A model generated the notes under the pieces. That model was not told the origin of the DNA, did not search any database, and was given only the letters and a program-made list of their open reading frames with translations. A stretch of 64,000 nucleotides of DNA, taken from Ohtaekwangia koreensis (lineage in GTDB: Bacteria > Bacteroidota > Bacteroidia > Cytophagales > Cyclobacteriaceae). The position numbers and the translations under genes were made by a program. Positions 25,048 to 38,720 of this stretch are shown piece after piece. The stretch lies in contig NZ_FUZU01000004.1 in the NCBI RefSeq assembly GCF_900167975.1, positions 868,001 through 932,000 on the forward strand, read 5' to 3'. Each line of letters starts with the position of its first letter. The stretch's first letter is position 1.

Positions 25048-27300
25048 TTATTGCAATATGAAGATTCCCTTTTTTAAATCCCTCGAATCACCCCCTATAT
25101 ATACTTCAAATTTACCAGGCTCTACACCAAATGACATGTCCTTACGGTAAAAAGATAAATCGTGTTGCGTAAGGGTAAAGGTGATTTCCTTGGATTCACC
25201 TGGTTGGAGCATGATCTTTTGAAAGTTCTTCAACTCTTTTACCGGGCGCGTTACACTTCCTACAAGATCGTGTATATATAGCTGCACGACTTCTTCACCT
25301 GCACGCTTGCCTGTGTTGGTAACCTTACAGGATACCTTCAACTCATCCTGCTGCGTGATCTGCGGGCTGCTTAGTGAAATGTCTCCATACGTGAATGTAG
25401 TATAGCTCAGTCCGTATCCGAATGGATAAAGTGGTTCGTTGGATTCATCCAGGTATTTGGAAGTATATTTATTGTTAGCATCCATGGGTCGACCTGTATT
25501 CTTCATGCTATAATATATAGGCACTTGTCCTACCGAACGCGGGAATGTAACGGTGAGCTTGCCGGATGGATTATAATCACCAAACAAAACATCCGCTATA
25601 GCATGGCCTGCTTGTGTTCCAAGAAACCACGTCTCAACGATGGCCGGTATATTGTCGTTGATCCAGTTAATGGTAAGTGGCCGTCCGTTAGACAATACGA
25701 CAACCACCGGTTTTCCCGTCTTCTGAATTTCCTCCACTAACTTTTGCTGCACACCGGGTAAATCCAATGCTGTGCGACTGGCGGCTTCACCGGTCATCAA
25801 TGCAGCTTCACCAACAGCAAGTACTACTACATCAGCCTGTTTCGCTGTTTGTATCGCTTGTGAGAAATACGTTGTTGTATCATCGTTTATATTACAACCA
25901 CGCGCATATAGTACCTGCGTAGAAGGAGTGACAGCTGCTTTGATACCTTCCAGTAATGTAACAGCTTTTGTCCAATCACCCGCTGCAGACCAAGAGCCGA
26001 TCATCTCGCGTCTTGCATCCGCCAGTGGGCCAATTACTGCGATACGTTTTATACTTTTGGACAATGGTAAAACTTGTTTTTCATTCTTGAGCAGCACAAT
26101 GGATTTACGGGCACCATCTCTGGCTGCATCCAGAAACTCTTTCTTCATAACGGTAGACTTCTCTCGTTCTACGTTGCTATATCTATAGGGATCATCAAAC
26201 AATCCCAACTCAAACTTCTTTCGCAGGATTCTGCGTACGGCCTCATCGATGAGTCCTTCTTTCAGTTTACCTTCCTTCACTAACTTCTCCAAGGCATCGT
26301 TGTAAAATCCTGCCTGCATGTCCATATCAACACCTGCTTCCAATGCAAGCGCTGCGGCTGAAGCAGTGTCCTCAGCTATACCATGTGGCAATAGTTCCAT
26401 AATAGAAGTATAGTCTGTAACAACAAAACCTGTAAAATTCCACTCCTTGCGAAGTATATCGGTCATCAGGTATTTATTACCCGTAGCGGGTATACCATCC
26501 AGTTCATTAAAGGAAGTCATAACGGTTGCAGCACCAGCATCGATAGCAGCTTTGTAAGGAGGAAGATATACTTCCCGCAATACTCTGTCAGACATATCGG
26601 TTGTATGATAATCCCGGCCTGCTTGTACTGCACCATACGCAGCGAAATGCTTTACACAGGCAAGAACAGAATTCAACGCTCCTATACCTTCGCCTTGAAA
26701 TCCCTTCACACGCGCTTCTGCAATTCGTGAACCTAAATATGTATCTTCTCCAGCACCTTCTGCCATACGACCCCACCGTGGATCGCGCGCTATATCACAC
26801 ATAGGAGCAAATGTCCAATGCAATCCTTCGGCTGATGCTTCTTCTGCTGCTATGCGCGCAGATTGCTGCATCACGTTTAAATCCCAACTGCATGATTCTC
26901 CTAATGGAATCGGGAAAATTGTACGATGCCCATGAATCACATCGTATCCAAATAACAACGGTATATGTAGCCTTGTCTCCTTTACAGCAATTTCCTGAAG
27001 CTTGCGCGTATAGTCTGCACCAAATGCATTGAAGATCGCTCCTACTTTTCCCGCCTTTATATCATCTTTATAGTTCTCGCGTATCGTAGGACCTGTAACA
27101 TCATAATCGCTGGTGAATAATGTTAGTTGACCTATTTTTTCTTCCAATGTCATTAACGCCAATACCGAGTCTACACGACCATCCACCTGGCTGTTGGCAG
27201 ACGATGGACTTGTATTACTATTTTTCTGACAGCCGGTAAAGATTGCTACGACTATCACTAACAAATATATTCTGTTCATAGCAGCGTGATATTTCTTCAT
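25048..27300 (-). CDS. GH3 beta-glucosidase, lipoprotein (BglX-like)
   Basis: 750 residues. Exo-acting beta-glucosidase, probably periplasmic-facing lipoprotein: signal with IFTGC (C24). Start may be Met1 or Met8 (MNRIYLLVIVV). GH3 N-terminal barrel with ARDPRWGRMAEGAGEDTYLG, KHFAAYG (Lys218-His219) and FVVTDYTS, whose Asp296 is the expected nucleophile; then the alpha/beta sandwich (KSIVLLKNEKQVLPL, PLYPFGYGLSYTTF) and a C-terminal fibronectin-III-like domain. Placed 128 bases after the GH144 gene, so it likely completes breakdown of that enzyme's oligosaccharides, e.g. sophorose to glucose (inference). Confidence 0.93.
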   Translation of the reverse strand: MKKYHAAMNRIYLLVIVVAIFTGCQKNSNTSPSSANSQVDGRVDSVLALMTLEEKIGQLTLFTSDYDVTGPTIRENYKDDIKAGKVGAIFNAFGADYTRKLQEIAVKETRLHIPLLFGYDVIHGHRTIFPIPLGESCSWDLNVMQQSARIAAEEASAEGLHWTFAPMCDIARDPRWGRMAEGAGEDTYLGSRIAEARVKGFQGEGIGALNSVLACVKHFAAYGAVQAGRDYHTTDMSDRVLREVYLPPYKAAIDAGAATVMTSFNELDGIPATGNKYLMTDILRKEWNFTGFVVTDYTSIMELLPHGIAEDTASAAALALEAGVDMDMQAGFYNDALEKLVKEGKLKEGLIDEAVRRILRKKFELGLFDDPYRYSNVEREKSTVMKKEFLDAARDGARKSIVLLKNEKQVLPLSKSIKRIAVIGPLADARREMIGSWSAAGDWTKAVTLLEGIKAAVTPSTQVLYARGCNINDDTTTYFSQAIQTAKQADVVVLAVGEAALMTGEAASRTALDLPGVQQKLVEEIQKTGKPVVVVLSNGRPLTINWINDNIPAIVETWFLGTQAGHAIADVLFGDYNPSGKLTVTFPRSVGQVPIYYSMKNTGRPMDANNKYTSKYLDESNEPLYPFGYGLSYTTFTYGDISLSSPQITQQDELKVSCKVTNTGKRAGEEVVQLYIHDLVGSVTRPVKELKNFQKIMLQPGESKEITFTLTQHDLSFYRKDMSFGVEPGKFEVYIGGDSRDLKKGIFILQ

Positions 27301-27428: not shown

Positions 27429-29081
27429 TTATTCGTTTTTTGTAAAACCAAGTTTTGTTCTTGCAGCTTGTACTTCAGGAGCAGATTCAAATAAATCCCA
27501 GAGCAACTCACTCCTGTGGTTTTCAATCATGACAATGATTGGTCCTTGATCAATGGCCAGGTATGAACTAGCAGTCCAGCCATCGGATATATTAAACGCA
27601 TCATAAAAGCCATACTCTCCCCACAGACGATCTCCAAGTGTATAATAGAAAAACTTCAATGCCCGCATCGATTCTTCCGGTGTGTATGGAAATGAAGACA
27701 GGGCTGCCGTTGGCGTTATAACACCTTTGTCATTTACAGGAGAGTGCGCATCATAACCAGTAGCATTATCACTTGACGTCAAGCCCCAGCATGAATCGCT
27801 GTAGCCTATATATTTTCTAGGATTTGCAACACAGTACGAATAATTGATGCGCGATGCATTTACATTTTGTTCCCAATAATTTGCAAACTCATCTGAAAAG
27901 TGAGGATCCAATCCGAGATATGAATAATGTACCCAGAACAATGGACTCGGTGTACCCAATGGCAAAACATATCCATAGTATGTATTACCTGTTTTTATAG
28001 CACCCTTGCGTCCGTATCCATTCGTATATACAGTCTTTGGTATACTATGTGTTGGTGATGCAGCCGCCAGAAAATAAGTTATCTGTTCTTCAAAATAACC
28101 GTACATCGGAAAGTTCATGTCCCAATTATAGGTTGGCGACCAATGCCAGTATAGTACATCTTCATTATTCTTCCGGTACCAATCCCATTCAATATCTTTC
28201 CATATAGTATTGATTCGGTTGATCAGGTTGTTACCGGCCGTGTCGGATGGCTGCAGATACTGACGAAATGTAATAAGGCCTTGCACGAGAAATGATGTCT
28301 CCACTAAATCGCCACCATTATCCTTTGTACTGAAAGGTATAGCATCTCCGTTGTTACCGTTGATCCAATGAGACCACGCACCATGAAAACGATCGGCTCC
28401 TTCGAGGAACGTTACAATTTTGTTGAGGCGTTGAACACCTTCTGAGCGGGTAATAAAATTTCTTTCGATACCAACGATGATCGACATAATTCCAAATCCC
28501 GAACCTCCACTAGTCACCGTACTACCGGAAGTATTACGCTCTCGCGCCATGCCACTCACAGGGTCTGCAAAATCCCAGAAGTATTTGAAGGTTTGCTTTT
28601 GCACAAGTGTAAGAAGCTCTTCATCTGAAATCTCAGGAAAGTCTGGGGTTTCATCTATAGCGGTATAGAAGGGTTGCTCGCCTGGAGACAGTACACCACC
28701 ATTACTTCCGATTACACCTGCAGCTATTGTAAGCTGATGTTTTGACAGGTCTCTTAATTTATTAGCAAACGTAACTATGACTTTACTGTTTTCTTCCTGT
28801 AAACTTATTGTTGCAGGCACAGTACTATTTGTAACATCTTTCACATATATATTCTGTGACGTAACTGTGGAAGGATTAAGCGGCGAAGAGAACTTGATCT
28901 CAATCACAACATTCTCGCACGGAATGTTCATTGTGGCGGTTGCTTCGGTTACTTCATTTCCTGCTATCTTCAAAGATTCTATTTCCAAAGCATCTGGAAA
29001 AGTATCCTGTTTATTATCGTCTTCACTGCATGCCAGCAAGAATACAATTATTGCTACTATGCTTACGCTTCGTCTCATCAT
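27429..29081 (-). CDS. GH144-type endo-beta-1,2-glucanase (glucoamylase-like domain), lipoprotein
   Basis: 550 residues from the MMRRSV start at 29081; a longer frame exists but would add a non-signal leader. Lipobox FLLAC (C18). Residues ~30-140 are an Ig-like (Big_5-type) domain ending in YTAIDETPDFP. Residues ~155-550 form the (alpha/alpha)6 'glycoamylase' domain: KYFWDFADPVSGMARERN, TSGGSGFGIMSIIVGIER, FHGAWSHWING, KDNGGDLVETSFLVQGLI and VLYWHWSPTYNWDMN. GH144 was founded on an endo-beta-1,2-glucanase from Chitinophaga. With susC/susD upstream and GH3 downstream this makes a beta-1,2-glucan locus likely. Substrate is inferred from family and context. Confidence 0.85.
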   Translation of the reverse strand: MMRRSVSIVAIIVFLLACSEDDNKQDTFPDALEIESLKIAGNEVTEATATMNIPCENVVIEIKFSSPLNPSTVTSQNIYVKDVTNSTVPATISLQEENSKVIVTFANKLRDLSKHQLTIAAGVIGSNGGVLSPGEQPFYTAIDETPDFPEISDEELLTLVQKQTFKYFWDFADPVSGMARERNTSGSTVTSGGSGFGIMSIIVGIERNFITRSEGVQRLNKIVTFLEGADRFHGAWSHWINGNNGDAIPFSTKDNGGDLVETSFLVQGLITFRQYLQPSDTAGNNLINRINTIWKDIEWDWYRKNNEDVLYWHWSPTYNWDMNFPMYGYFEEQITYFLAAASPTHSIPKTVYTNGYGRKGAIKTGNTYYGYVLPLGTPSPLFWVHYSYLGLDPHFSDEFANYWEQNVNASRINYSYCVANPRKYIGYSDSCWGLTSSDNATGYDAHSPVNDKGVITPTAALSSFPYTPEESMRALKFFYYTLGDRLWGEYGFYDAFNISDGWTASSYLAIDQGPIIVMIENHRSELLWDLFESAPEVQAARTKLGFTKNE

Positions 29082-29101
29082 TCTCAACCGGTGATAACCT
29101 A

Positions 29102-29129
29102 AGAGGCTTCCGGCAAGCCGGAAACCTCT
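29102..29129 (-). promoter_or_regulatory. Hairpin between PUL 3 susD and the GH144 gene
   Basis: AGAGGCTTCCGGC pairs with GCCGGAAACCTCT around a two-base loop with one C-A mismatch. It lies in the 77-base gap after susD with no U-run. An mRNA-stability or processing element is most likely. Confidence 0.65.
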
Positions 29130-29158
29130 AAACCTAACTAACCTCCAAACTATATATA

Positions 29159-30616
29159 TCAATATCCGTTATTCTGCGGAATCGCGTTATTGGTAATATC
29201 AATCATTACCTGCGGAACAGGAAATACATCGTTCTTTCCACTTACAAATCCTTGTGGACCTAAAACCGTTGCAGCCTGACCAGTACGTACGAGATCAAAG
29301 AAGCGATCGCCTTCCATGGCAAGTTCAAGTCTGCGTTCGTTCCATATATCCTGAAGTGTTGGTGCTTCTATAGGATCAAGATCAACACGCTCTCTCACAA
29401 GATTCAATGATGTTGCAGCACCCCCTATATCTCCCTTCTGAACTTTTGCTTCAGCATCGATCAATAGTATTTCAGCATAGCGTAGTACGCGTATATTTTG
29501 TTCAGCACCTTCATTCACGCCACTTACTTGTCTATTACGAGGTACATATGACTTACCATTGTAACGCGGTATATTAACTCCTTCGAGCTCACCGTTTCCA
29601 ACACCTTCTATTACATCGCCATCTTCCGTAACATCACCTTTATATAGGATAGTCACTTTCTTACGGACTTCGTCACCGGCAGCATCAAACGCAGCGGCTA
29701 AATCATCGGAAGGTATATTGAAACCCCACCCAAATCCATTTGTACCGCGGACACCTTGTACTTGAGAATGCTGGCTATTGCTAAGATCAGCGTTACCTGC
29801 CACAGCAGATGCCTGGATTTCAAACAACGATTCTTTACCATTTTCAAAAGGTATACGGAATACGTCATAGAAATTTTCCTCCAAACCATAGCGATTGGAG
29901 TTGATAATAGCCGATGTCTGTTCGAGTACCTTATCCCATTCGCCCCTATATAAATATACTTTTGCAAGTAAACCACGTGCGGCACCATTCGTTGCACGAC
30001 CCACGTTAGCAGCATCATAGCTATCCGGAAGTACTGCTATAGCATCTGTCAAGTCCTGGATGATCTGCGCATATACTTCATCTTTTGGAGTACGTACCGT
30101 TGAAGCTTCCAGTACATTATCAATTGAAGTCGGCATCGGCACATCACCAAACGCACGCACCAGGTCAAAATAAAATAATGCGCGTGTAAATTTAGCTTCA
30201 CCCAATAAACGAGTCTTCAGGGTTTCATTCATTTCAATATCAGGAACATTGCTCAATACCTGATTGCTGAGATTTATACCTTCATACCGGCCATTCCAAT
30301 AATCTGTTATTGTGCCTTGATTGGAAGTAAACGTAAACTTGTCAAAATCATTTATAAAAGATGCATCACCCTGAGAACTGCCTTTAATGGAGTTGTCAGA
30401 AGTAATTTCCTGCATGATTACATAGGCAAATGCAACCATTTGCCAAGTACGCATGCGTGCATAAATTGCATTCACGGCAGACACAGCATCTTCCTGAGTC
30501 TGGAAGAATTCTTCGGTAGGCTTTACACCCTCCGGGTCTACATCCAAATAATCACTGCATCCAAAGGGTGCCAGCAATGTTAGTATCGCTACTAGAAAGA
30601 TTATATACTTTTTCAT
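29159..30616 (-). CDS. SusD/RagB family nutrient-binding lipoprotein (PUL 3)
   Basis: 485 residues. Lipobox APFGC (C20). SusD hallmarks are complete: DYLDVDPEGVKPTEEFFQTQEDAVSAVNAIYARM, GEAKFTRALFYFDLVRAFGDVPMP, RVLRYAEILLIDAEAKVQ, WNERRLELAMEGDRFFDLVRTG, and the final PQNNGY. It follows susC by 14 bases. Specificity for beta-1,2-glucooligosaccharides is inferred from the GH144/GH3 genes. Confidence 0.95.
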   Translation of the reverse strand: MKKYIIFLVAILTLLAPFGCSDYLDVDPEGVKPTEEFFQTQEDAVSAVNAIYARMRTWQMVAFAYVIMQEITSDNSIKGSSQGDASFINDFDKFTFTSNQGTITDYWNGRYEGINLSNQVLSNVPDIEMNETLKTRLLGEAKFTRALFYFDLVRAFGDVPMPTSIDNVLEASTVRTPKDEVYAQIIQDLTDAIAVLPDSYDAANVGRATNGAARGLLAKVYLYRGEWDKVLEQTSAIINSNRYGLEENFYDVFRIPFENGKESLFEIQASAVAGNADLSNSQHSQVQGVRGTNGFGWGFNIPSDDLAAAFDAAGDEVRKKVTILYKGDVTEDGDVIEGVGNGELEGVNIPRYNGKSYVPRNRQVSGVNEGAEQNIRVLRYAEILLIDAEAKVQKGDIGGAATSLNLVRERVDLDPIEAPTLQDIWNERRLELAMEGDRFFDLVRTGQAATVLGPQGFVSGKNDVFPVPQVMIDITNNAIPQNNGY

Positions 30617-30630
30617 GGTTATACTCTTTA

Positions 30631-33600
30631 CTATAAACTTATGTTAATCCCTAAATTGTAAGTCGCAGCCATTGGATATACATTGTTATCTATACCTTGG
30701 CTGGTTATGTTTGTTGTATTTTGTTGGTTTACACCTGGAATAGCGGTTGGTATTTCCGGGGAGAAGCCGTTGTACTTAAAGGCTACCAAAGGGTTGGCCG
30801 CATTGGCATATACTCTAAGTTTCGTAATGCCTATACGCGAAGTTGTTGTTGCAGGGAAAGTATATCCAACCTGGATATTCCGAATCTTAAAGAAGTTACC
30901 GGACTCCAGGTACCAGGAGTTAGCCTGCTTGTTAGCATCTGCTGAAAGATCAGCGGATGGATAATCATTGGATGTACCTTCACCATGCCAACGATGCTCC
31001 AGGAAGTCGCGATCATAATTTTCATTACCGATCTGACGATAACGTTTCGCGTTATAAATTTTATTTCCTCCTTGTGCGTATAGATCGATCGTGATATCAA
31101 AACCTTTATAGGCTCCATATAGGTTTACACCATAATTATACTTTGGAATAGCGGACCCCAGGAACACACGATCTTTATCGTTGATCTGTCCATCGTTGTT
31201 ACTGTCCTGATATTTAAAATCACCGGGTTTGGCATTGGGTTGTATAATTGTGCCATCGGCATCGGTATAATTTTCTATTTCAGCGTCATTCTGGAATATA
31301 CCGATCACTTTGCGTCCATAGAACTCACCAACGCTTTGTCCAACGACAGTATAGGTAGTAGGTGTTACGTTCACATAACCGCCATATATACCCACCGTAC
31401 CGGGACGCAAAGCATCTACCTTGTTTGTATTATATGCAAACACACCTCCTATACCATACGTAAAATCACCTACTTTATCCTTCCAATTCAATGCTACCTC
31501 AACACCCTTGTTTATAATATCTGCATTGTTATCAAGATAGTCTCTGTTTGAAGTTCCAAACACACCGTTGACCGTTACAGGAAAAATAGCATTGCTCGTT
31601 TTTCGATTATAGTAATCTATCTCAAAATTCAACTTGTTATTTAGCACATTACCTTCAACTGCAAAATCTACCTCCTTTGTTGTCTCCCATAATAAATTAT
31701 CGGGTACTATAAGAGTAACGCTCTCACCTGTTTGTGGAGTTCCTCCAAATACAGGGCTGTAGGTACCACCTGTCGAAGTATAGCTTACAACAGTGTTACC
31801 AGGTATACGGTTGTTACCCATTTTACCCCAGCTCGCCCGTAGTTTCAGAAATTGGAAAAAATTCTGATCGTCCATGAACGATTCGTTGGTCAACACCCAA
31901 CCCAAACCAAGTGAAGGGAAATAGTCATAACGATTATTCTTATCAAACACTGAAGTTCCATCTCTGCGTATCGTAGCGGTCAGAAGATATTTTTCCTGGA
32001 ATGCATAGGTCAATCTTCCAAAATAGGACAGTGCTTTAATGTTATAGCCTGCATCTGTAGTCGACTGCGAAGCATTTCCCAAATTCAAGTACCATGTATT
32101 TTCTCCAAAGTCTTCAACACCTTGGCGTATTCCCGTAAGAGAATAAAAGCGCTGCTGCTGTGCGTTCATACCAGCAAGAAGCGTAAAGTGATGATCAGAG
32201 TTTAATGTAAAATCGTAGGTAAGTGTATTGTCCCAATAGTAACTAAAGTAGTTATCGATTTTTCTTGTCAACGTTTTTGTTGTATCACGTTGCGTTGATG
32301 AAACAAAATACGGAGGAACATACTTCGTATTTTGGCTATAGCTTCCATCTACTCCGTAAGCAGTTCTAAAAGTTAGCCCTTTGGCAAGGGTTACATCTGC
32401 TGACACTGCACCTACTAAACGTATACCTTTTGTCTTATCATTGTTATAGTATTGAGAAGCAGCAGGGTTTGCGAAATCACCAAAGGCTTGAGGACTTGCA
32501 AATGTATTTTCATCAATACGAACTGGTATAGCGGGTGGTGCTATATATGCACTCGTGAACAATGATGCAGGAGCGTTAGTTGATTTAAAGTTCGACAGGT
32601 TTGCATTCACGCCAATCTTCAAGAACTTTGTTACTGTTGACTCCACTGACGTTCTTAAATTTAAACGTTCGTAATCTGTTTTGCTTGCAAGGCCTTCCTG
32701 TTTGAAATAACTGCCGCCCATTGCATATACACTTTTTTCACTTCCACCGGTAACACTCAAGTCATGGTTTTGTATAGAAGCTCCACTTCTTAGAATTTCA
32801 TCATACCAATCTGTAGAATATGGATAAGCTGCGGGGTCACGTGGAGTAAAACTTGTTCCGTTGCGGCTGGCTGCAATAGCATCTTTTTCATTCAGTAACT
32901 GTACATAATCAGAACCTGAAGCCATGTCCACCATGTTGATCGGATTCTGAACGCCAGCATATCCTGAATAAGCAATTTTTGGCTGCTCGTTCTTTCCACG
33001 TTTCGTTGTAATGATTACTACACCATTCGATGCACGAATACCATATATAGCAGACGCTGAAGCATCTTTCAGGATGTTCATACTTTCGATATCGTTGCTT
33101 CCAAGGAAACTGATGTCATCCACTAATACACCATCAACTACATATAGGGGTTCAACTCGTGAACTAACAGAACCTAATCCGCGAACGCGAATTGTTGGTG
33201 CGCTGCCAGGGGTACCGTTGGTTGTTACCTGTACACCAGCAACTTTGCCTTGCAACGCTTCAGCTGCTGTCGATACGGGTATCTTATTAAGATCTTCTGC
33301 CCGCACTGAAGCGACAGCACCTGTAACATCTGATTTCTTCTGAACACCATATCCAATTACCACCACTTCAGTCAGCGATGTTATATCAGAACCCATCGTC
33401 ACATCTATTACCGTTCTATCACCAACCTCTTCCGTGATGGTTGAAAATCCCACGAACGTAAACACCAACGTGTTTTCAGAAGCCGACAACTGTATCGAGT
33501 AATTACCCTCGGCATCGGTTGTCGTACCCTTTGTTGTACCCTGAACAACGACATTCACTCCTGGCAAGGTCGTTCCATCTTCTGCGGCTGTTACCTTCCC

Positions 33601-33681
33601 GGTTATCTGCTTGTCTTGTGCCCAAACTGTTGTCCACAACAAGCTGGGCAACAGCACTGTCAATAGTAGTTTTCTTATCAT
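30631..33681 (-). CDS. SusC/RagA family TonB-dependent outer-membrane transporter (PUL 3)
   Basis: 1016 residues from ATG 33681 (MIRKLLLTVLLPSLLWTTVWAQ, a clean signal peptide). An in-frame ATG 30 codons upstream would add a basic leader and overlap probable operator sequence, so I reject it. Carboxypeptidase-regulatory domain (ITGKVTAAEDGTTLPGVNV), LTEVVVIGYGVQKKSDVTG, plug domain with PLYVVDGVLVDD and NILKDASASAIYGIRASNG, and a barrel ending LGINISL. No STN domain. Transports oligosaccharides with the SusD encoded just downstream. Confidence 0.95.
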   Translation of the reverse strand: MIRKLLLTVLLPSLLWTTVWAQDKQITGKVTAAEDGTTLPGVNVVVQGTTKGTTTDAEGNYSIQLSASENTLVFTFVGFSTITEEVGDRTVIDVTMGSDITSLTEVVVIGYGVQKKSDVTGAVASVRAEDLNKIPVSTAAEALQGKVAGVQVTTNGTPGSAPTIRVRGLGSVSSRVEPLYVVDGVLVDDISFLGSNDIESMNILKDASASAIYGIRASNGVVIITTKRGKNEQPKIAYSGYAGVQNPINMVDMASGSDYVQLLNEKDAIAASRNGTSFTPRDPAAYPYSTDWYDEILRSGASIQNHDLSVTGGSEKSVYAMGGSYFKQEGLASKTDYERLNLRTSVESTVTKFLKIGVNANLSNFKSTNAPASLFTSAYIAPPAIPVRIDENTFASPQAFGDFANPAASQYYNNDKTKGIRLVGAVSADVTLAKGLTFRTAYGVDGSYSQNTKYVPPYFVSSTQRDTTKTLTRKIDNYFSYYWDNTLTYDFTLNSDHHFTLLAGMNAQQQRFYSLTGIRQGVEDFGENTWYLNLGNASQSTTDAGYNIKALSYFGRLTYAFQEKYLLTATIRRDGTSVFDKNNRYDYFPSLGLGWVLTNESFMDDQNFFQFLKLRASWGKMGNNRIPGNTVVSYTSTGGTYSPVFGGTPQTGESVTLIVPDNLLWETTKEVDFAVEGNVLNNKLNFEIDYYNRKTSNAIFPVTVNGVFGTSNRDYLDNNADIINKGVEVALNWKDKVGDFTYGIGGVFAYNTNKVDALRPGTVGIYGGYVNVTPTTYTVVGQSVGEFYGRKVIGIFQNDAEIENYTDADGTIIQPNAKPGDFKYQDSNNDGQINDKDRVFLGSAIPKYNYGVNLYGAYKGFDITIDLYAQGGNKIYNAKRYRQIGNENYDRDFLEHRWHGEGTSNDYPSADLSADANKQANSWYLESGNFFKIRNIQVGYTFPATTTSRIGITKLRVYANAANPLVAFKYNGFSPEIPTAIPGVNQQNTTNITSQGIDNNVYPMAATYNLGINISL

Positions 33682-34065
33682 AAACTTGCGTTTTGTTGGT
33701 TGCGCAGAGCCGAATTTTACATTTGTCAAGCTCTTCACAGAACTTTTTTTAAAAAATGAGACCAAATGCAATCGTTGAAGGGATGATTTTCAACGACAAT
33801 TTTTCCAGATAAAAAACATTGATTTCAAACGATTCCAAAGAATATTTATAGAAGTATCAGACACTTCTTCCAGAAAAAAAACAAACGATTTTAAGATGTG
33901 AGATTAAGGGATAGAGAAAATTCAGTTGGACGTTTTATTTCCTCGAACTCCAGATGAGTCCGAGGTCACTACATTTTATTATAAAGCCAACTTCCCCACA
34001 AGAGGATTAAAGCATTTAGACTAAAGCCTCACTTTGCTTTTGTTATTGGATACACAACTGGTGTA
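33682..34065. promoter_or_regulatory. Upstream region of PUL 3 susC (384 bases, no gene)
   Basis: Contains LacI-like TGCAATCGTTGA at 33767-33778 overlapping an 8-bp inverted repeat TCGTTGAA/TTCAACGA (33772-33779 and 33789-33796), and TTCAAACGATTCCA at 33824-33837, with another AAACGATT near 33892. These resemble, without matching, the GCAATCGATTGC sites of the pectin loci. A LacI-family repressor is a reasonable guess, but no dedicated regulator gene is present beside PUL 3. The remainder (33900-34065) shows no recognisable feature. Confidence 0.5.
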
Positions 34066-34833
34066 TTACAAACGCCCAAAATTGGTTTTGGGATTTCCAG
34101 GAAATAAAGAACGGTTTAACGACACTACTTCTTCATGAGACGGTGGCGTTGTACGTTTCATCAGCGTAACGATTGAAGAATCTCTGATATAAGCTGCATT
34201 TTCTTTTACTCCTTCAAAAAGAGCTTGGTTAAGTTCTATTCTATCCAGCTCTGTGCAATAAGCTGGCGTGCCAGGTTGATGTCTCCAGGATGCCGATAAA
34301 GTACCTGCATCAACAACATCAAAACCTGTGTCGTTAATTAAGTTGGATATTACCGCTTTCATCTTTCCATCATCTCCGGATATAGCCATTGCTATCCGTC
34401 CTTCGGCCCCTTCAGGCTTGCCTCCGTGTTCGAGACTATACGCCAACAGATTATTGAAAGCCTTAATGACGGGACGTCCTATTTGTTCTGAAACCCATAC
34501 ACTTTCAACCTTACCGTTGTTGAGTTCTTCGATCTGTCCATCACGGAATGGATAATAATTAGAGGTATCAACTACGATAACATCTTCCGAAATATTAGCA
34601 AACAACTCTTTTGGCAGGCTGGGAATTGCAGCAGTCGGTATAGATATGATAACGACATCAACATCTTTTACTATATCATATAGTGTTGAAGGCAATGCAC
34701 CTAATTCGTGAGCACGGGTTTTCAGTTTATCAAATTCCTGTGTACTATATATTTTTACAACATGGCCTGCAACAGCCAACTTTTTTGCTATTGTCCCGCC
34801 TATCGCCCCAGCACCAATTATTCCTATTTTCAT
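34066..34833 (-). CDS. NAD(P)-binding Rossmann oxidoreductase (F420H2:NADP reductase-like)
   Basis: 255 residues, cytoplasmic. N-terminal Rossmann motif KIGIIGAGAIGGTIAKKLAVAGH (split: GxGxxG at residues 7-12), followed by VDVVIISIPTAAIPSLPK and IVVDTSNYYP, as in the coenzyme-F420-dependent NADP reductase-like and ProC/beta-hydroxyacid dehydrogenase superfamily. Bacteroidota are not known to make F420, so the substrate is unknown. It is divergent from an HxlR regulator with a perfect palindrome in the shared 171-base gap. Redox or electrophile-stress induced expression is likely by analogy with other HxlR-oxidoreductase pairs. Confidence 0.75.
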   Translation of the reverse strand: MKIGIIGAGAIGGTIAKKLAVAGHVVKIYSTQEFDKLKTRAHELGALPSTLYDIVKDVDVVIISIPTAAIPSLPKELFANISEDVIVVDTSNYYPFRDGQIEELNNGKVESVWVSEQIGRPVIKAFNNLLAYSLEHGGKPEGAEGRIAMAISGDDGKMKAVISNLINDTGFDVVDAGTLSASWRHQPGTPAYCTELDRIELNQALFEGVKENAAYIRDSSIVTLMKRTTPPSHEEVVSLNRSLFPGNPKTNFGRL

Positions 34834-34984: not shown

Positions 34985-35004
34985 GGCAAAAAGTGGAAAT
35001 TAAA

Positions 35005-35352
35005 ATGGCACAAAAGAAAACGTACTGCGATTGTCTTAATACAGTGAAGCCCGTCCGAGATGCTCTTGATGTAATCAATGGAAAATGGAAATTGCCTATT
35101 ATCATTTCTGTGGGAGTTGGTAATGATCGCTTCACTGACATACAGGAAAGTATACCTGGGATTACTCCTAAAGTGTTGGCCAAGGAGCTTAAAGATTTAG
35201 AGCAACACAAATTGATAAAGCGTACTGTGTTGGATGAATATCCGGTTAAAATCTCCTACACGTTAGAGAAGTATGCAAATACTTTAACACCCATTATCTA
35301 TTCGCTCAAGGATTGGGGAATTAACCACAAAAAGAAAGTAACAGAGCAATAA
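35005..35352 (+). CDS. HxlR family winged-helix transcriptional regulator
   Basis: 115 residues from ATG 35005; a GTG four codons upstream is in frame but less likely. HxlR signatures: CDCLNTVKPVRDALDVINGKWKLPII, ITPKVLAKELKDLEQHKLIKRTV and the winged-helix VKISYTLEKYANTLTPIIYSLKDWG. Two N-terminal cysteines (C8, C10) are near the position of redox-sensing cysteines in related proteins such as YodB/HypR. It likely represses itself and the divergent Rossmann oxidoreductase through the palindrome at 34957-34984. Confidence 0.92.
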   Translation: MAQKKTYCDCLNTVKPVRDALDVINGKWKLPIIISVGVGNDRFTDIQESIPGITPKVLAKELKDLEQHKLIKRTVLDEYPVKISYTLEKYANTLTPIIYSLKDWGINHKKKVTEQ

Positions 35353-35443
35353 TGCTCTTCCAAAAGTATACCGGAGCTGACTACTATAGAATATGGTTGC
35401 ACTACCACTATATATAGTAGCCCCGAGTCGAACCGGAATTGCT

Positions 35444-37396
35444 TCAACCCTCTACTTGCTTCACCACTTTGCGCTGCGATTTCTTCGAAGCTTTGGAGCC
35501 TGGCTCCGGCAGAAGGATCACTTCATCCCATCGGGAAGCGTTGGGTTTATGTCCTTTTTTCTCCAATTCAAGTATGCGGTCAGCAACTTTATGCCTAAAG
35601 CCCCAGAGGGTATTAACTCGCAATTCCAATTGCTCAGCTAGACTTTCAAGGGTATAATCTTTATGTCCTACAACGGTGAGGTAGGCGATGTAAAAGGCTT
35701 TTTCAATCGGAAATTTGATGCTGTGAAAAATAGTATATGCTGTAATCGATTCGTTATAGCCACAACGGGTACATCTCCTTGAAAACTTCTGTGCGCCATC
35801 GAAGTACTTTTCGTTCGCGCATTTGCGACAATGAAAATCTTTTGTCCATTTCAAATTTTCCAGAAAGCGATAACACGCTAGCGTATCCGGATATATAGTC
35901 TTGAACTGGTTATAGTCCATCGTCTTTTCCATCAGGCGCTCGTTGAGAACTTCCTTGATGCTATTCTTTAATTTCCAGTTGTCAAGATCAAGTATAGAGT
36001 TGATCTGGTTGATCTCATACGACTGCCGCTCGAGTTTGGTGTTCGTTTCTTCAAGCTGATGATTCTTTTCATTCAGCTCCAGCGTTCGTTCCTGTACTTT
36101 CTGTTCGAGTTCGCGATTTACTTTATCCTTCAACCGCATGTTCACTTCATGCTGGTGAATGATTCTGCGCAAGGCACGATCGCGCATATCTTTGAGAATC
36201 CGGATCCTGTCTCCCAGGGCGAACGTCAGGAACAACATCTCCAAAACAAAACTGAAGTGCAGGCTATAATGCAAAGGTGTTGTAAACGGAAGGGCATTGA
36301 AATATACCAGCGACCGTATAAAGAAACCCATAAATAAAATTCCGTAGGCAATTACAAAAAAGCGTGCTGGTCTATATCCTTGCCGCCACACTTTTATACC
36401 AGTATAAAAAATCAACGACAACGGAATGATCTCAACGTTTCTATAGGTCAGCAGCTGTGGCAGGAAAAATAGTTCAACGATAAACCATATCGATCGCGCT
36501 ACAATCATCCATCGTATCGCGAGATCAAGAACGGGTACATTTGCCTTCGTGCTTAAGAATCTCCGCGTGAAGATGAGGCCCCAGATGATTACCAGGTACA
36601 ACGTTATCCCTACTGCATAATTATTCCATTCCGGATGATTGGGCCACAGGTATTGAAAACCGATACCGTCATAACTCATCGCATAGGCCGCTACACTCAG
36701 TATATAAATGATATAATATATATTCTTGATCTCGCGGATAGCCAGGTATACCAGGAAATTATAGAGGCTGATGATGAGGATCATCCCGTAGAAGGTACCG
36801 AACAAGAAGTACTCATTCAACGCATAGTATACAAAGCGGTCAACCGAACGGAAGGCTATACGGATGTCTGCAAACTCGTGCGAGCGTACATTGAAGTAAT
36901 AGTACATCGCAGTATCAGACTTGATATCGAGGATAATTTCGAAATTCTTGTGACGAAGCGTCCGTTGTGCAAAAGGCTGTTCATCGCCCATCAATACATT
37001 CCGGTAGGAACCATTCTCCTGCGGAACATACGCCTCTATATGATCGATCGTTTGATCGTAAAATTCCAGAAGCCATACTTTACTACTCTCTGCTTTGTGG
37101 CGAATCGGCAACCGAATCCAATACGAAGCATTTGTTTTAAAGTCTTTATTCTGATAGTCAGAATGCTTTTGAAACCGGTTAGAAAAACTATTGGAAGAGA
37201 TCTGATAAAAGGAAAGTGAGTTGGTAGTATCCAGGTAATACTCCAATTCATACGGCATGAAATTCCGTTCTATATAACTATCGTCTACCTCAAAAAAATC
37301 CTGTCCCTGAGCAGTGCAACAAAATAAAAGCAACCACACGGCTAACATGTACTTCACGTTGCAGGCGGTTGAATATGGTTGTCCAGGTTTATACAT
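35444..37396 (-). CDS. 7TMR-DISM membrane receptor fused to an IS1595-transposase-type zinc ribbon/HTH domain
   Basis: 650 residues. Signal peptide ~1-31; periplasmic beta-domain (~35-185, 7TMR-DISMED2-like, ASYWIRLPIRHK, WLLEFYDQTIDHIEAYVP); seven-helix 7TMR-DISM membrane region (~193-398); coiled coil (~405-500, LEQKVQERTLELNEKNHQLEE). Then, where a kinase or cyclase would be expected, residues ~505-625 match the N-terminal part of IS1595-family transposases: zinc ribbon Cys523, Cys526, Cys542, Cys545, the segment ITAYTIFHSIKFPIEKAFYIAYL, and an HTH-like YTLESLAEQLELRVNTLWGFRHKV. The DDE nuclease is absent. I infer a membrane-tethered DNA-binding regulator. Convergent with hxlR, 262 bases downstream of rhaT. 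Confidence 0.85.
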   Translation of the reverse strand: MYKPGQPYSTACNVKYMLAVWLLLFCCTAQGQDFFEVDDSYIERNFMPYELEYYLDTTNSLSFYQISSNSFSNRFQKHSDYQNKDFKTNASYWIRLPIRHKAESSKVWLLEFYDQTIDHIEAYVPQENGSYRNVLMGDEQPFAQRTLRHKNFEIILDIKSDTAMYYYFNVRSHEFADIRIAFRSVDRFVYYALNEYFLFGTFYGMILIISLYNFLVYLAIREIKNIYYIIYILSVAAYAMSYDGIGFQYLWPNHPEWNNYAVGITLYLVIIWGLIFTRRFLSTKANVPVLDLAIRWMIVARSIWFIVELFFLPQLLTYRNVEIIPLSLIFYTGIKVWRQGYRPARFFVIAYGILFMGFFIRSLVYFNALPFTTPLHYSLHFSFVLEMLFLTFALGDRIRILKDMRDRALRRIIHQHEVNMRLKDKVNRELEQKVQERTLELNEKNHQLEETNTKLERQSYEINQINSILDLDNWKLKNSIKEVLNERLMEKTMDYNQFKTIYPDTLACYRFLENLKWTKDFHCRKCANEKYFDGAQKFSRRCTRCGYNESITAYTIFHSIKFPIEKAFYIAYLTVVGHKDYTLESLAEQLELRVNTLWGFRHKVADRILELEKKGHKPNASRWDEVILLPEPGSKASKKSQRKVVKQVEG

Positions 37397-37658
37397 GCGT
37401 TGGAGTTAACACAAATCCTGATGATTACGTTTATGAAAGCAACAAATTGTGCTCTGGCAAATTTATTTATCGGACTTCTCTCCAGAGAAGCCGGCAGTAT
37501 CTGCCACTGAAATATCGGAAGAATTTTCGGATCGACAGGACGAATTCTTTAAACGGCATGCAGCCGCACTACGTCATGAACGAAATACTATACCAGTCGC
37601 TTCTTTTAAGCGACCAACAAATGGCTATAGCCTACAGAAATTAGAAATACATTAGATG

Positions 37659-38720
37659 CTATATATCTTCGATCGAGTTACCATACCCTACAATAATAAC
37701 GGAGAGTATAATTATAAAGATACCCATCAGGATGGTGGAATATGTTTTCTTGCTAACACCTTTCCATTCTTTCAATAATATTCCCCACATACTGGAGACA
37801 AGAATGATAAAAGCCATGTGCAGGATCCAGGAGCTGGCCCCATTGCCCAATTTACTTTCCCCCATCCCATAGAAGAAAAATTGCAGAAACCACGTTGTAC
37901 CGGCAAGCGCCGCAAATATATAGTTGTTCAAAAGTGGAGTTCTGTTATTGGTGTAGTCACCAAATGTTTTGTTTTGAAAATTAAGCAGTATACACCAGAT
38001 GAAGTTTGTTGTAAGCCCTCCCCACAGTAACACCACAAAAATTACGTTGTTCTGAAAAAGCGGATTGCTGCCATTCGCTACAGCTGCCACTGCCATCGGT
38101 TTTCCGGCTTCTATACCAAAGTTAAAACACGCGCTCAACACACCGGATATTATAGCCACTACTAAACCTTTGGAGAGATTGAATTCCTGAATACTGTTTT
38201 TCTTTTGCTCGTCTGTGAGTTCTTTCTCTTTTAGAATACCTGCACGCCCGCATACAAATATTCCCGTAAGACAAACTACAACACCTGCCAACACAACTTG
38301 TCCACCTGTACTGCTAAGCATCGCTGAAAAGGTATGCTCGGTGCTGTTGGTAAAAAGATCGCGATATATAGGGGGCACCAGCGAACCGAACGCAGATGTC
38401 AAGCCGAGTATAACAGACATCCCTAATGATAAACCAAGATAGCGCATACCCAAGCCGAACGTTAATCCGCCAACACCCCAGAGCAATCCCATAACGAATG
38501 TCCAGAATATAATGGAAGCATCTGTAGTCCTGATGATCTGCATAAAACCAGGCACCGTTAAATAAGCCGCCAGCAGTGGAATAAAGAGCCACGAAAATAA
38601 ACCACCTACAATCCAGTAGCTTTCCCACGACCATCCCTTTACTTTTTTATACGGGATATAAAAACTACCCGAAGCGAATCCACCTATAAAGTGATAAATG
38701 ATACCTGCGATTACCTGCAT
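37659..38720 (-). CDS. rhaT: L-rhamnose/proton symporter
   Basis: 353 residues, about ten membrane helices, inner membrane. Start taken at Met 38720 (MQVIAGIIYHFIGGFASGSFYIPYKKVKGWSWE), matching the family N-terminus; a Met ten codons earlier is in frame. Family stretches: GLLWGVGGLTFGLGMRYLGLSLGMSVILGL, EFNLSKGLVVAIISGVLSACFNFGIEAGKP and WFLQFFFYGMGESKLG with KEWKGV near the end. Rhamnose is a backbone sugar of rhamnogalacturonan I, so this transporter fits the pectin loci on the left although it is not in their operons. No rhamnose isomerase or kinase gene is in the window. Confidence 0.9.
   Translation of the reverse strand: MQVIAGIIYHFIGGFASGSFYIPYKKVKGWSWESYWIVGGLFSWLFIPLLAAYLTVPGFMQIIRTTDASIIFWTFVMGLLWGVGGLTFGLGMRYLGLSLGMSVILGLTSAFGSLVPPIYRDLFTNSTEHTFSAMLSSTGGQVVLAGVVVCLTGIFVCGRAGILKEKELTDEQKKNSIQEFNLSKGLVVAIISGVLSACFNFGIEAGKPMAVAAVANGSNPLFQNNVIFVVLLWGGLTTNFIWCILLNFQNKTFGDYTNNRTPLLNNYIFAALAGTTWFLQFFFYGMGESKLGNGASSWILHMAFIILVSSMWGILLKEWKGVSKKTYSTILMGIFIIILSVIIVGYGNSIEDI

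Follow-up and report, generated by a model that had tools for sequence, protein, structure and literature searches.

A 7TMR-DISM receptor with an IS1595-type DNA-binding domain as a candidate membrane-tethered regulator of PULs in Bacteroidota

In a 64,000-nucleotide stretch of the Ohtaekwangia koreensis genome (contig NZ_FUZU01000004.1, positions 868,001 to 932,000; hereafter, the window) we identify a membrane receptor that ends in the zinc ribbon and HTH of IS1595 transposases, and we consider it likely, with a probability of about 0.8, that it regulates transcription of the polysaccharide-utilisation locus (PUL) next to it, as its sequence and that of its surroundings suggest. More specifically, it probably works as a membrane-tethered one-component regulator of a glucan PUL, for which we infer the ligand, dimerisation, DNA binding and sign of control. 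Bacteroidota rank among the main degraders of polysaccharides, yet most of what is known of PUL control comes from gut Bacteroides, in the form of SusR, hybrid two-component systems (HTCS) and ECF. The receptor offers a widespread candidate regulator of PULs for which a predicted operator and target operons are in hand, and which can therefore be put to the test directly. With it, moreover, bacteria offer a clean example of a transposase DNA-binding domain that has become the output of a signalling protein. That a domesticated transposase domain might serve as the output of a one-component membrane regulator had been proposed in an earlier note made from the letters of the window, and this proposal gains support from the clade formed by the receptor domains, from selection, from operon linkage and from a candidate operator. 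The PUL context, the candidate operator and the parallel with SusR are additions to that note.

Domain architecture of the receptor

The features discussed here are collected in Table 1. In Pfam searches, the 7TMR-DISMED2 model matches residues 51-180 of the receptor (E 7e-27) and the 7TMR-DISM_7TM model residues 195-397 (E 1e-45), while Zn_ribbon_IS1595 (PF12760) matches residues 507-547 with an E value of 6e-6 and 26.6 bits, just over its curated cut-off of 25.4. Positions 3-72 of the 215-position NCBIfam IS1595 transposase model match residues 561-629 with 24.2 bits against a cut-off of 75, a score expected for an N-terminal fragment. The AlphaFold model of the whole receptor (pLDDT 85.5, pTM 0.63) has a signal-like helix at residues 14-26, which would be the N-terminal signal peptide, a domain rich in strands (up to residue 184), the membrane helices (up to about residue 400) and a helix spanning residues 378-484, followed by a low-confidence segment (472-491), the ribbon and three helices (564-613). 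Upon modelling the C-terminal 145 residues alone (AlphaFold, 65 sequences; pLDDT 92.7, pTM 0.86), the ribbon strands and the three HTH helices were again obtained. The IS1595-type domain thus comprises a zinc ribbon (C523, C526, C542, C545) and a tri-helical HTH (564-576, 583-590, 594-613), and the chain stops 105 residues beyond the fourth cysteine. The earlier note had the limits of the gene right, on what is the minus strand, and its reading of a DISMED2-like domain, seven helices, a long coiled coil, the four cysteines and a helical segment of IS1595 type was borne out by Pfam, NCBIfam and the models, including the profile search and structure prediction that it had suggested for the C-terminal part (residues 500-650 for the former).

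Foldseek searches with the whole receptor model returned human WLS as the top match and the periplasmic domain of RetS (3jyb; TM 0.61 by target) as the second. The C-terminal model gave nothing at E <= 0.001, its weak matches (E >= 0.4) including HTH proteins and TFIIB/TFE ribbons, and sequence searches found no solved structure related to the ribbon-HTH, the best match being a kinase zinc domain with an E value of 0.04. A 194-aa ORF on the plus strand (window positions 36635-37219), antisense within the receptor gene, is most likely spurious.

Table 1. Coordinates of the receptor gene, its domains, neighbouring genes, candidate operator sites and the SusR-type proteins compared (window positions, except where a locus is named)
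Feature	Coordinates	Strand	Basis
Receptor-regulator gene, 650 aa	35444..37396	minus	ORF
Periplasmic DISMED2 jelly-roll domain, ~residues 33-184	36845..37300	minus	Pfam 51-180; modelled strands 43-184
Seven-helix membrane domain, residues 185-400	36197..36844	minus	Pfam 195-397; model
Long helix / coiled-coil linker, residues 401-495	35912..36196	minus	Modelled single helix 378-484; low confidence 472-491
Captured IS1595-type DNA-binding domain	35558..35911	minus	Pfam, NCBIfam, models, tree, cysteine comparison
HxlR-type regulator between receptor and susC	34993..35352	plus	Domain search, neighbourhood
NAD(P)-binding oxidoreductase between receptor and susC	34066..34833	minus	Domain search, neighbourhood
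Distal candidate operator site	33867..33888	minus	Held-out best pair in 64-kb window
Proximal candidate operator site, direct repeat 65 bp from distal	33802..33823	minus	Same held-out pair
susC-type TonB-linked receptor	30631..33681	minus	TIGR04056 E 1e-250; likely ATG 33681; ORF open to 33771
susD-type lipoprotein	29159..30616	minus	SusD_RagB, SusD-like_3
PF10091 glycoamylase-type glycoside hydrolase	27429..29162	minus	E 2e-70
GH3 beta-glucosidase, BglX type	25048..27300	minus	NCBIfam BglX equivalog 921 bits, cut-off 666
SusR-type proteins compared	L211:120-1724, L212:15799-17469, L214:1924-3582		Match Pfam DUF6377 (PF19904)

The DISMED2 domain, seven-helix domain and coiled coil are those of 7TMR-DISM receptors, which usually end in kinases, cyclases, phosphatases or other domains, whereas the output of the window receptor is an IS1595 DNA-binding domain. 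With IS1595 transposases it shares the N-terminal-type zinc ribbon and HTH of about 110 residues; unlike them, it has no match to the DDE catalytic domain in Pfam or NCBIfam, as the earlier note had noticed, and no inverted repeat pair (>=14 nt) flanks its gene within positions 35000-37900. Its place beside PULs is that of the HTCS and ECF sigma/anti-sigma regulators, which together with SusR are the PUL regulator types proposed in the available part of PMC3878776, but Pfam finds no kinase, receiver, AraC-type or sigma domain in the receptor, in which it differs from them. A figure legend in PMC8092284, a source available in part, lists 7TMR-DISM among the architectures with a ChiS DNA-binding domain, and the fusion of such a receptor to a DNA-binding domain therefore has a precedent as such. 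An earlier description of a 7TM receptor with an IS1595 domain as a PUL regulator was not found in the open-access literature, where the ribbon family itself turned up in work on Merlin.

Distribution and conservation

A survey for the same architecture, likewise suggested by the earlier note, recovered 29 full-length proteins with the receptor layout and one cut by a contig end from 59 related genomes, as judged by alignment. A scan of named genomes returned at least 569 stretches encoding some relative of the receptor, a ribbon not being required of all, and the best 80 of these (the named loci) come from Chryseolinea, Fulvivirga, Roseivirga, Marivirga, Algoriphagus, Cyclobacterium, Echinicola, Litoribacter, Chitinophaga, Pedobacter and many MAGs. 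The CxxC...CxxC pattern is kept in 79 of these best 80, the exception (L085) being cut by the contig, and in 79 of the 80 the chain ends 81-110 residues past the fourth cysteine, which leaves no room for a DDE domain. Both DISM Pfam models are matched by all 48 receptors scanned, and PF12760 by 41 of them at E <= 0.001; the cysteines equivalent to Cys523, Cys526, Cys542 and Cys545 are invariant in the 48 receptor domains compared. One record among the loci (L121), titled 'Rickettsiales bacterium', is a typical Cytophagales receptor-PUL locus and probably a mislabelled MAG.

A profile of the linker, ribbon and HTH found matches at E <= 1e-25 in 126 of 245 genomes sampled from the receptor's family; in 117 of the 245 a listed match spans the linker in a frame of 597-715 aa, the other nine of the 126 having only weaker matches below the table cut. 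Receptor-type matches (linker covered, frame >600 aa) were obtained in 16 of 395 genomes sampled from the class and 11 of 395 from the phylum, and the remaining matches in these two samples are mainly in transposase-sized frames of about 300 aa, with some shorter.

Association with PUL genes

Gene neighbours were labelled by clustering of ORFs, with Pfam and NCBIfam searches covering the window genes and examples from the clusters. By these labels, the 81 loci formed by the window and the best 80 of at least 569 stretches contain a susC-type ORF in 73 cases, a susD in 68 and a PF10091-type hydrolase in 62. A same-strand susC lies within 600 bp downstream of the receptor in 67 of the 77 loci of this set with at least 2.5 kb of downstream sequence, and at some distance downstream in 72, including the window, where the distance is 1,673 bp. 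The five others are L050, in which the contig ends, the Fulvivirga loci L087 and L089, L101, in which susC is divergent and adjoins the receptor, and L116, which has a GH30 directly downstream. The usual order in Cytophagales is receptor, susC, susD, often a laminin-G-type protein, the PF10091 enzyme and GH3. In the Chitinophaga/Pedobacter-type loci (L119, L120, L124-L127 and L129) the receptor is followed by susC, susD and an ORF of the GH30 cluster; the enzyme of L124 scores 408 bits with the NCBIfam BT3312 endo-1,6-beta-glucanase model, under the cut-off of 700.

The linkage is looser in a second set of 20 loci, which holds mostly divergent receptors and shares a few members with the named loci. 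Here susC is directly downstream in six (L017-L019, L044, L045 and L047), and GH30, GH3, susC or susD adjoins the receptor in other orders in seven more (L016, L020, L025-L027, L046 and L048), so that 13 of the 20 have one of these genes beside the receptor. No such label is seen in the other seven (L021-L024, L028, L029 and L049), which counts against the receptor being a PUL regulator throughout; of these, the sequence of L022 stops 1.5 kb past the receptor, and in L029 a 1033-aa ORF without a label lies downstream. Neither a ribbon nor a directly downstream susC was found for any of 20 control 7TMR-DISM ORFs from 19 hand-picked loci, five of which contain an ORF matching the susC profile elsewhere.

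Candidate operator upstream of susC

The gaps between receptor and susC carry a conserved motif, approximately TGnTwTTnAAGCGnnA, present as two direct repeats. De novo motif search in 67 such gaps (150 starts) gave tcaaTGTTTTTaaagcGtaA with a score of 410, compared with 140 for one Markov-shuffled set (80 starts). Without recourse to any motif, the best direct-repeat lag falls at 64-68 bp in 30 of the 67 gaps, against a mean of 2.6 and a maximum of 7 in 200 shuffles; six of the seven loci of Chitinophaga/Pedobacter type have their best lag at 92-93 bp, which counts against a uniform spacing. An extra conserved TTATCA-like element occurs between the repeats in these loci (L119-L129).

We trained a 22-bp matrix on the best two sites of each gap, with no use of their spacing; it places these sites 64-66 bp apart in 48 of the 67 gaps and 92-93 bp apart in four. 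A wider model of 26 bp slid into A/T runs and was set aside. Ten loci outside the training set, the window included, served as a held-out test that is not fully independent, because relatives of these loci are in the training set, and the pair was found at the expected place in seven (the window, L061, L109, L097, L116, L101 and L050), the pair of L101 being weak (11.5) and that of L050, at a contig end, being placed by synteny with the window. The expected pair is missing from L100, L087 and L089, and in the last two no susC adjoins the receptor. Over both strands of the 64-kb window, the top pair scores 21.0 and the next 10.4; the sites of the top pair start 207 and 142 bp before the likely ATG of susC, so that the candidate operator has stayed with susC despite the two genes between receptor and susC. 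In the 63 training loci that measure 10 kb or more, the gap pair ranks first in 50 and is absent from the top pairs in 13. With a motif derived from the other clades (ta.TG.TATTaAAGCGtaA), the 64-66 lag is found again in 19 of 36 Chryseolinea-type loci, where chance gives about 0.5; transfer in the opposite direction is weak, with four of 31 other loci recovered by the Chryseolinea-type motif (chance about 0.5), and counts against the proposed regulation. When the known lags are imposed, and hence not as an independent test, a pair can be placed in 61 of the 67 gaps.

De novo search for a promoter motif yielded low-complexity sequence only (score 156, against 100-111 in three shuffled sets), and a fixed-offset count was therefore used instead. 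TAnnTT, which we take to be the Bacteroidota -7 box, starts 105 bp from the start of the proximal site in 20 of the 61 gaps, and at offsets 104 and 106 in seven and three, the mean over offsets being 0.95. The window has TAAAATTCG as its -7-like box, which is shifted by one base from the usual register. The Fulvivirga receptors of L087 and L089, which have neither a susC-type gene nor an operator pair alongside, may be orphan regulators with targets elsewhere.

Comparison with SusR

SusR is described, in the part of PMC3878776 available, as a membrane regulator with a periplasmic sensor and a cytoplasmic C-terminal DNA-binding domain that resembles no known one. The receptor is like SusR in its predicted layout, with a sensor in the periplasm and a DNA-binding domain at the cytoplasmic C-terminus, and in having its gene beside susCD, with long-spaced direct repeats upstream of susC; the spacing is mostly 64-66 bp at the receptor loci, compared with the 67 or 77 bp (centre to centre) predicted for SusR in the same part of that source. 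These repeats raised the idea that SusR might carry the same IS1595 domain, which was rejected upon comparison with three SusR-type proteins (Table 1), chosen by synteny (SusE/F-type genes) and architecture in place of BT3705 itself. All three have TPR/DUF6377 regions, a single TM past the signal region in a hydropathy scan and no zinc ribbon, unlike the DISMED2, 7TM and IS1595 ribbon-HTH of the receptor, and the two kinds of protein share only weak coil and HTH similarity. The receptor would therefore be SusR-like in its working but is not a member of the SusR family; SusR, by these sequence matches, appears to belong to the DUF6377 family, a domain of unknown function. A verified susC lies directly downstream of the SusR-type gene in two of the three loci fetched. 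BT3309 is given as SusR3 in the available text of PMC3878776, and its nearness by locus tag to BT3312 suggests that the same type of glucan PUL may be served by either regulator.

Proposed mode of regulation

We hypothesize that the DISMED2 domain detects, in the periplasm, an oligosaccharide that the SusCD system has released or imported, and that the signal would travel through the seven-helix domain and the long coiled coil, re-orienting the coiled coil and the pair of ribbon-HTH domains. The cytoplasmic ribbon/HTH domains, contributed by one dimer or by two, would then grip the two direct repeats, and the susC-susD-glycanase operon would be switched on. By analogy with the pairing of transposon ends by a transposase, the receptor may bring its two operator sites together; the candidate operators show no obvious resemblance to transposon ends, for which only few elements gave plausible terminal repeats.

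The same kind of regulator might instead be a repressor released by the sugar. We consider this unlikely, as the candidate sites do not cover the -7-like box but have their centres about 95 and 160 bp upstream, and the parallel with SusR, in the available part of PMC3878776, is with an activator. It is less probable still, and in our view improbable, that the receptor and the repeats both take part in PUL control and are uncoupled, another conserved regulator, to which the motif could belong, binding the repeats and the ribbon/HTH acting as a protein-protein or dimerisation module. Ribbons and HTHs are reusable for protein contacts, and the seven of 20 mostly divergent receptors that have no labelled PUL neighbour would also fit such an arrangement. 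It sits poorly with the HTH, in which T596 (kept by all 48 receptors) and W598 (by 44 of the 48) stay as in transposases, where each occurs in 22 of 24, with the absence of the pair beside the two Fulvivirga receptors that have no PUL, and with the finding of no pair above a score of 11 in 357 kb of control loci.

Origin of the DNA-binding domain

The domain through which the receptor would act on its PUL is related to those of transposases. In a midpoint-rooted tree of 77 domains, the reading of which is limited by the rooting and by its few columns (119), the 48 receptor domains group as one clade, with support of 99/90 and recovery in 98% of bootstrap trees. This clade is nested among the domains of 24 IS1595 transposases, and its closest neighbours are L030, the G218 copies and the stand-alone 137-aa protein L142. 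A transfer in the reverse direction, from receptor to transposase, would be less parsimonious. Nei-Gojobori omega values of the ribbon-HTH are 0.019-0.076 in the six of 14 pairs with measurable dS (dS is saturated in the other eight), and the C-terminal tail is looser than the ribbon-HTH in most measurable pairs; as judged by these substitution rates, the DNA-binding domain is under purifying selection. We think it reasonably likely that a single ancient capture of the DNA-binding domain of an IS1595 transposase by a 7TM receptor gave rise to a further class of PUL regulators in Bacteroidota, sugar-sensing and membrane-tethered, which would have converged on the layout of SusR (a gene upstream of susCD, and paired direct-repeat candidate operators about six helical turns apart) and would serve PULs that SusR/HTCS serve elsewhere.

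The nesting of the domain among transposases would also suit a receptor that anchors DNA or transposition at the membrane, for example in the control of IS1595 elements, and plays no part in transcription. This is very improbable: the linkage is to PULs, and in the window's genome PF12760 exceeds its cut-off for the receptor alone, with no other intact IS1595 ribbon ORF above that cut-off and three weaker matches that all have internal stops, including a remnant in a 33-aa frame. A chance or recent fusion (an IS remnant, read-through or an assembly error, of which the earlier note had raised the first and the last) would account for the transposase relationship of the domain but is refuted by the conservation of the receptor layout across the named loci of many genera, the profile matches and modelled ribbon, a 99% identical gene in a separate assembly, the low dN/dS and the absence both of flanking inverted repeats and of another intact IS1595 ribbon ORF over the cut-off, and we give it next to no weight.

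Apart from the membrane receptors that we regard as PUL regulators, stand-alone proteins of 137-185 aa with an IS1595 ribbon-HTH region are encoded at L142:1194-1607, L144:1477-2034 and L159:1486-2043. They are DDE-less by length, L159 is without the four-cysteine pattern, and all three are possible further domesticated DNA-binding proteins, or remnants.
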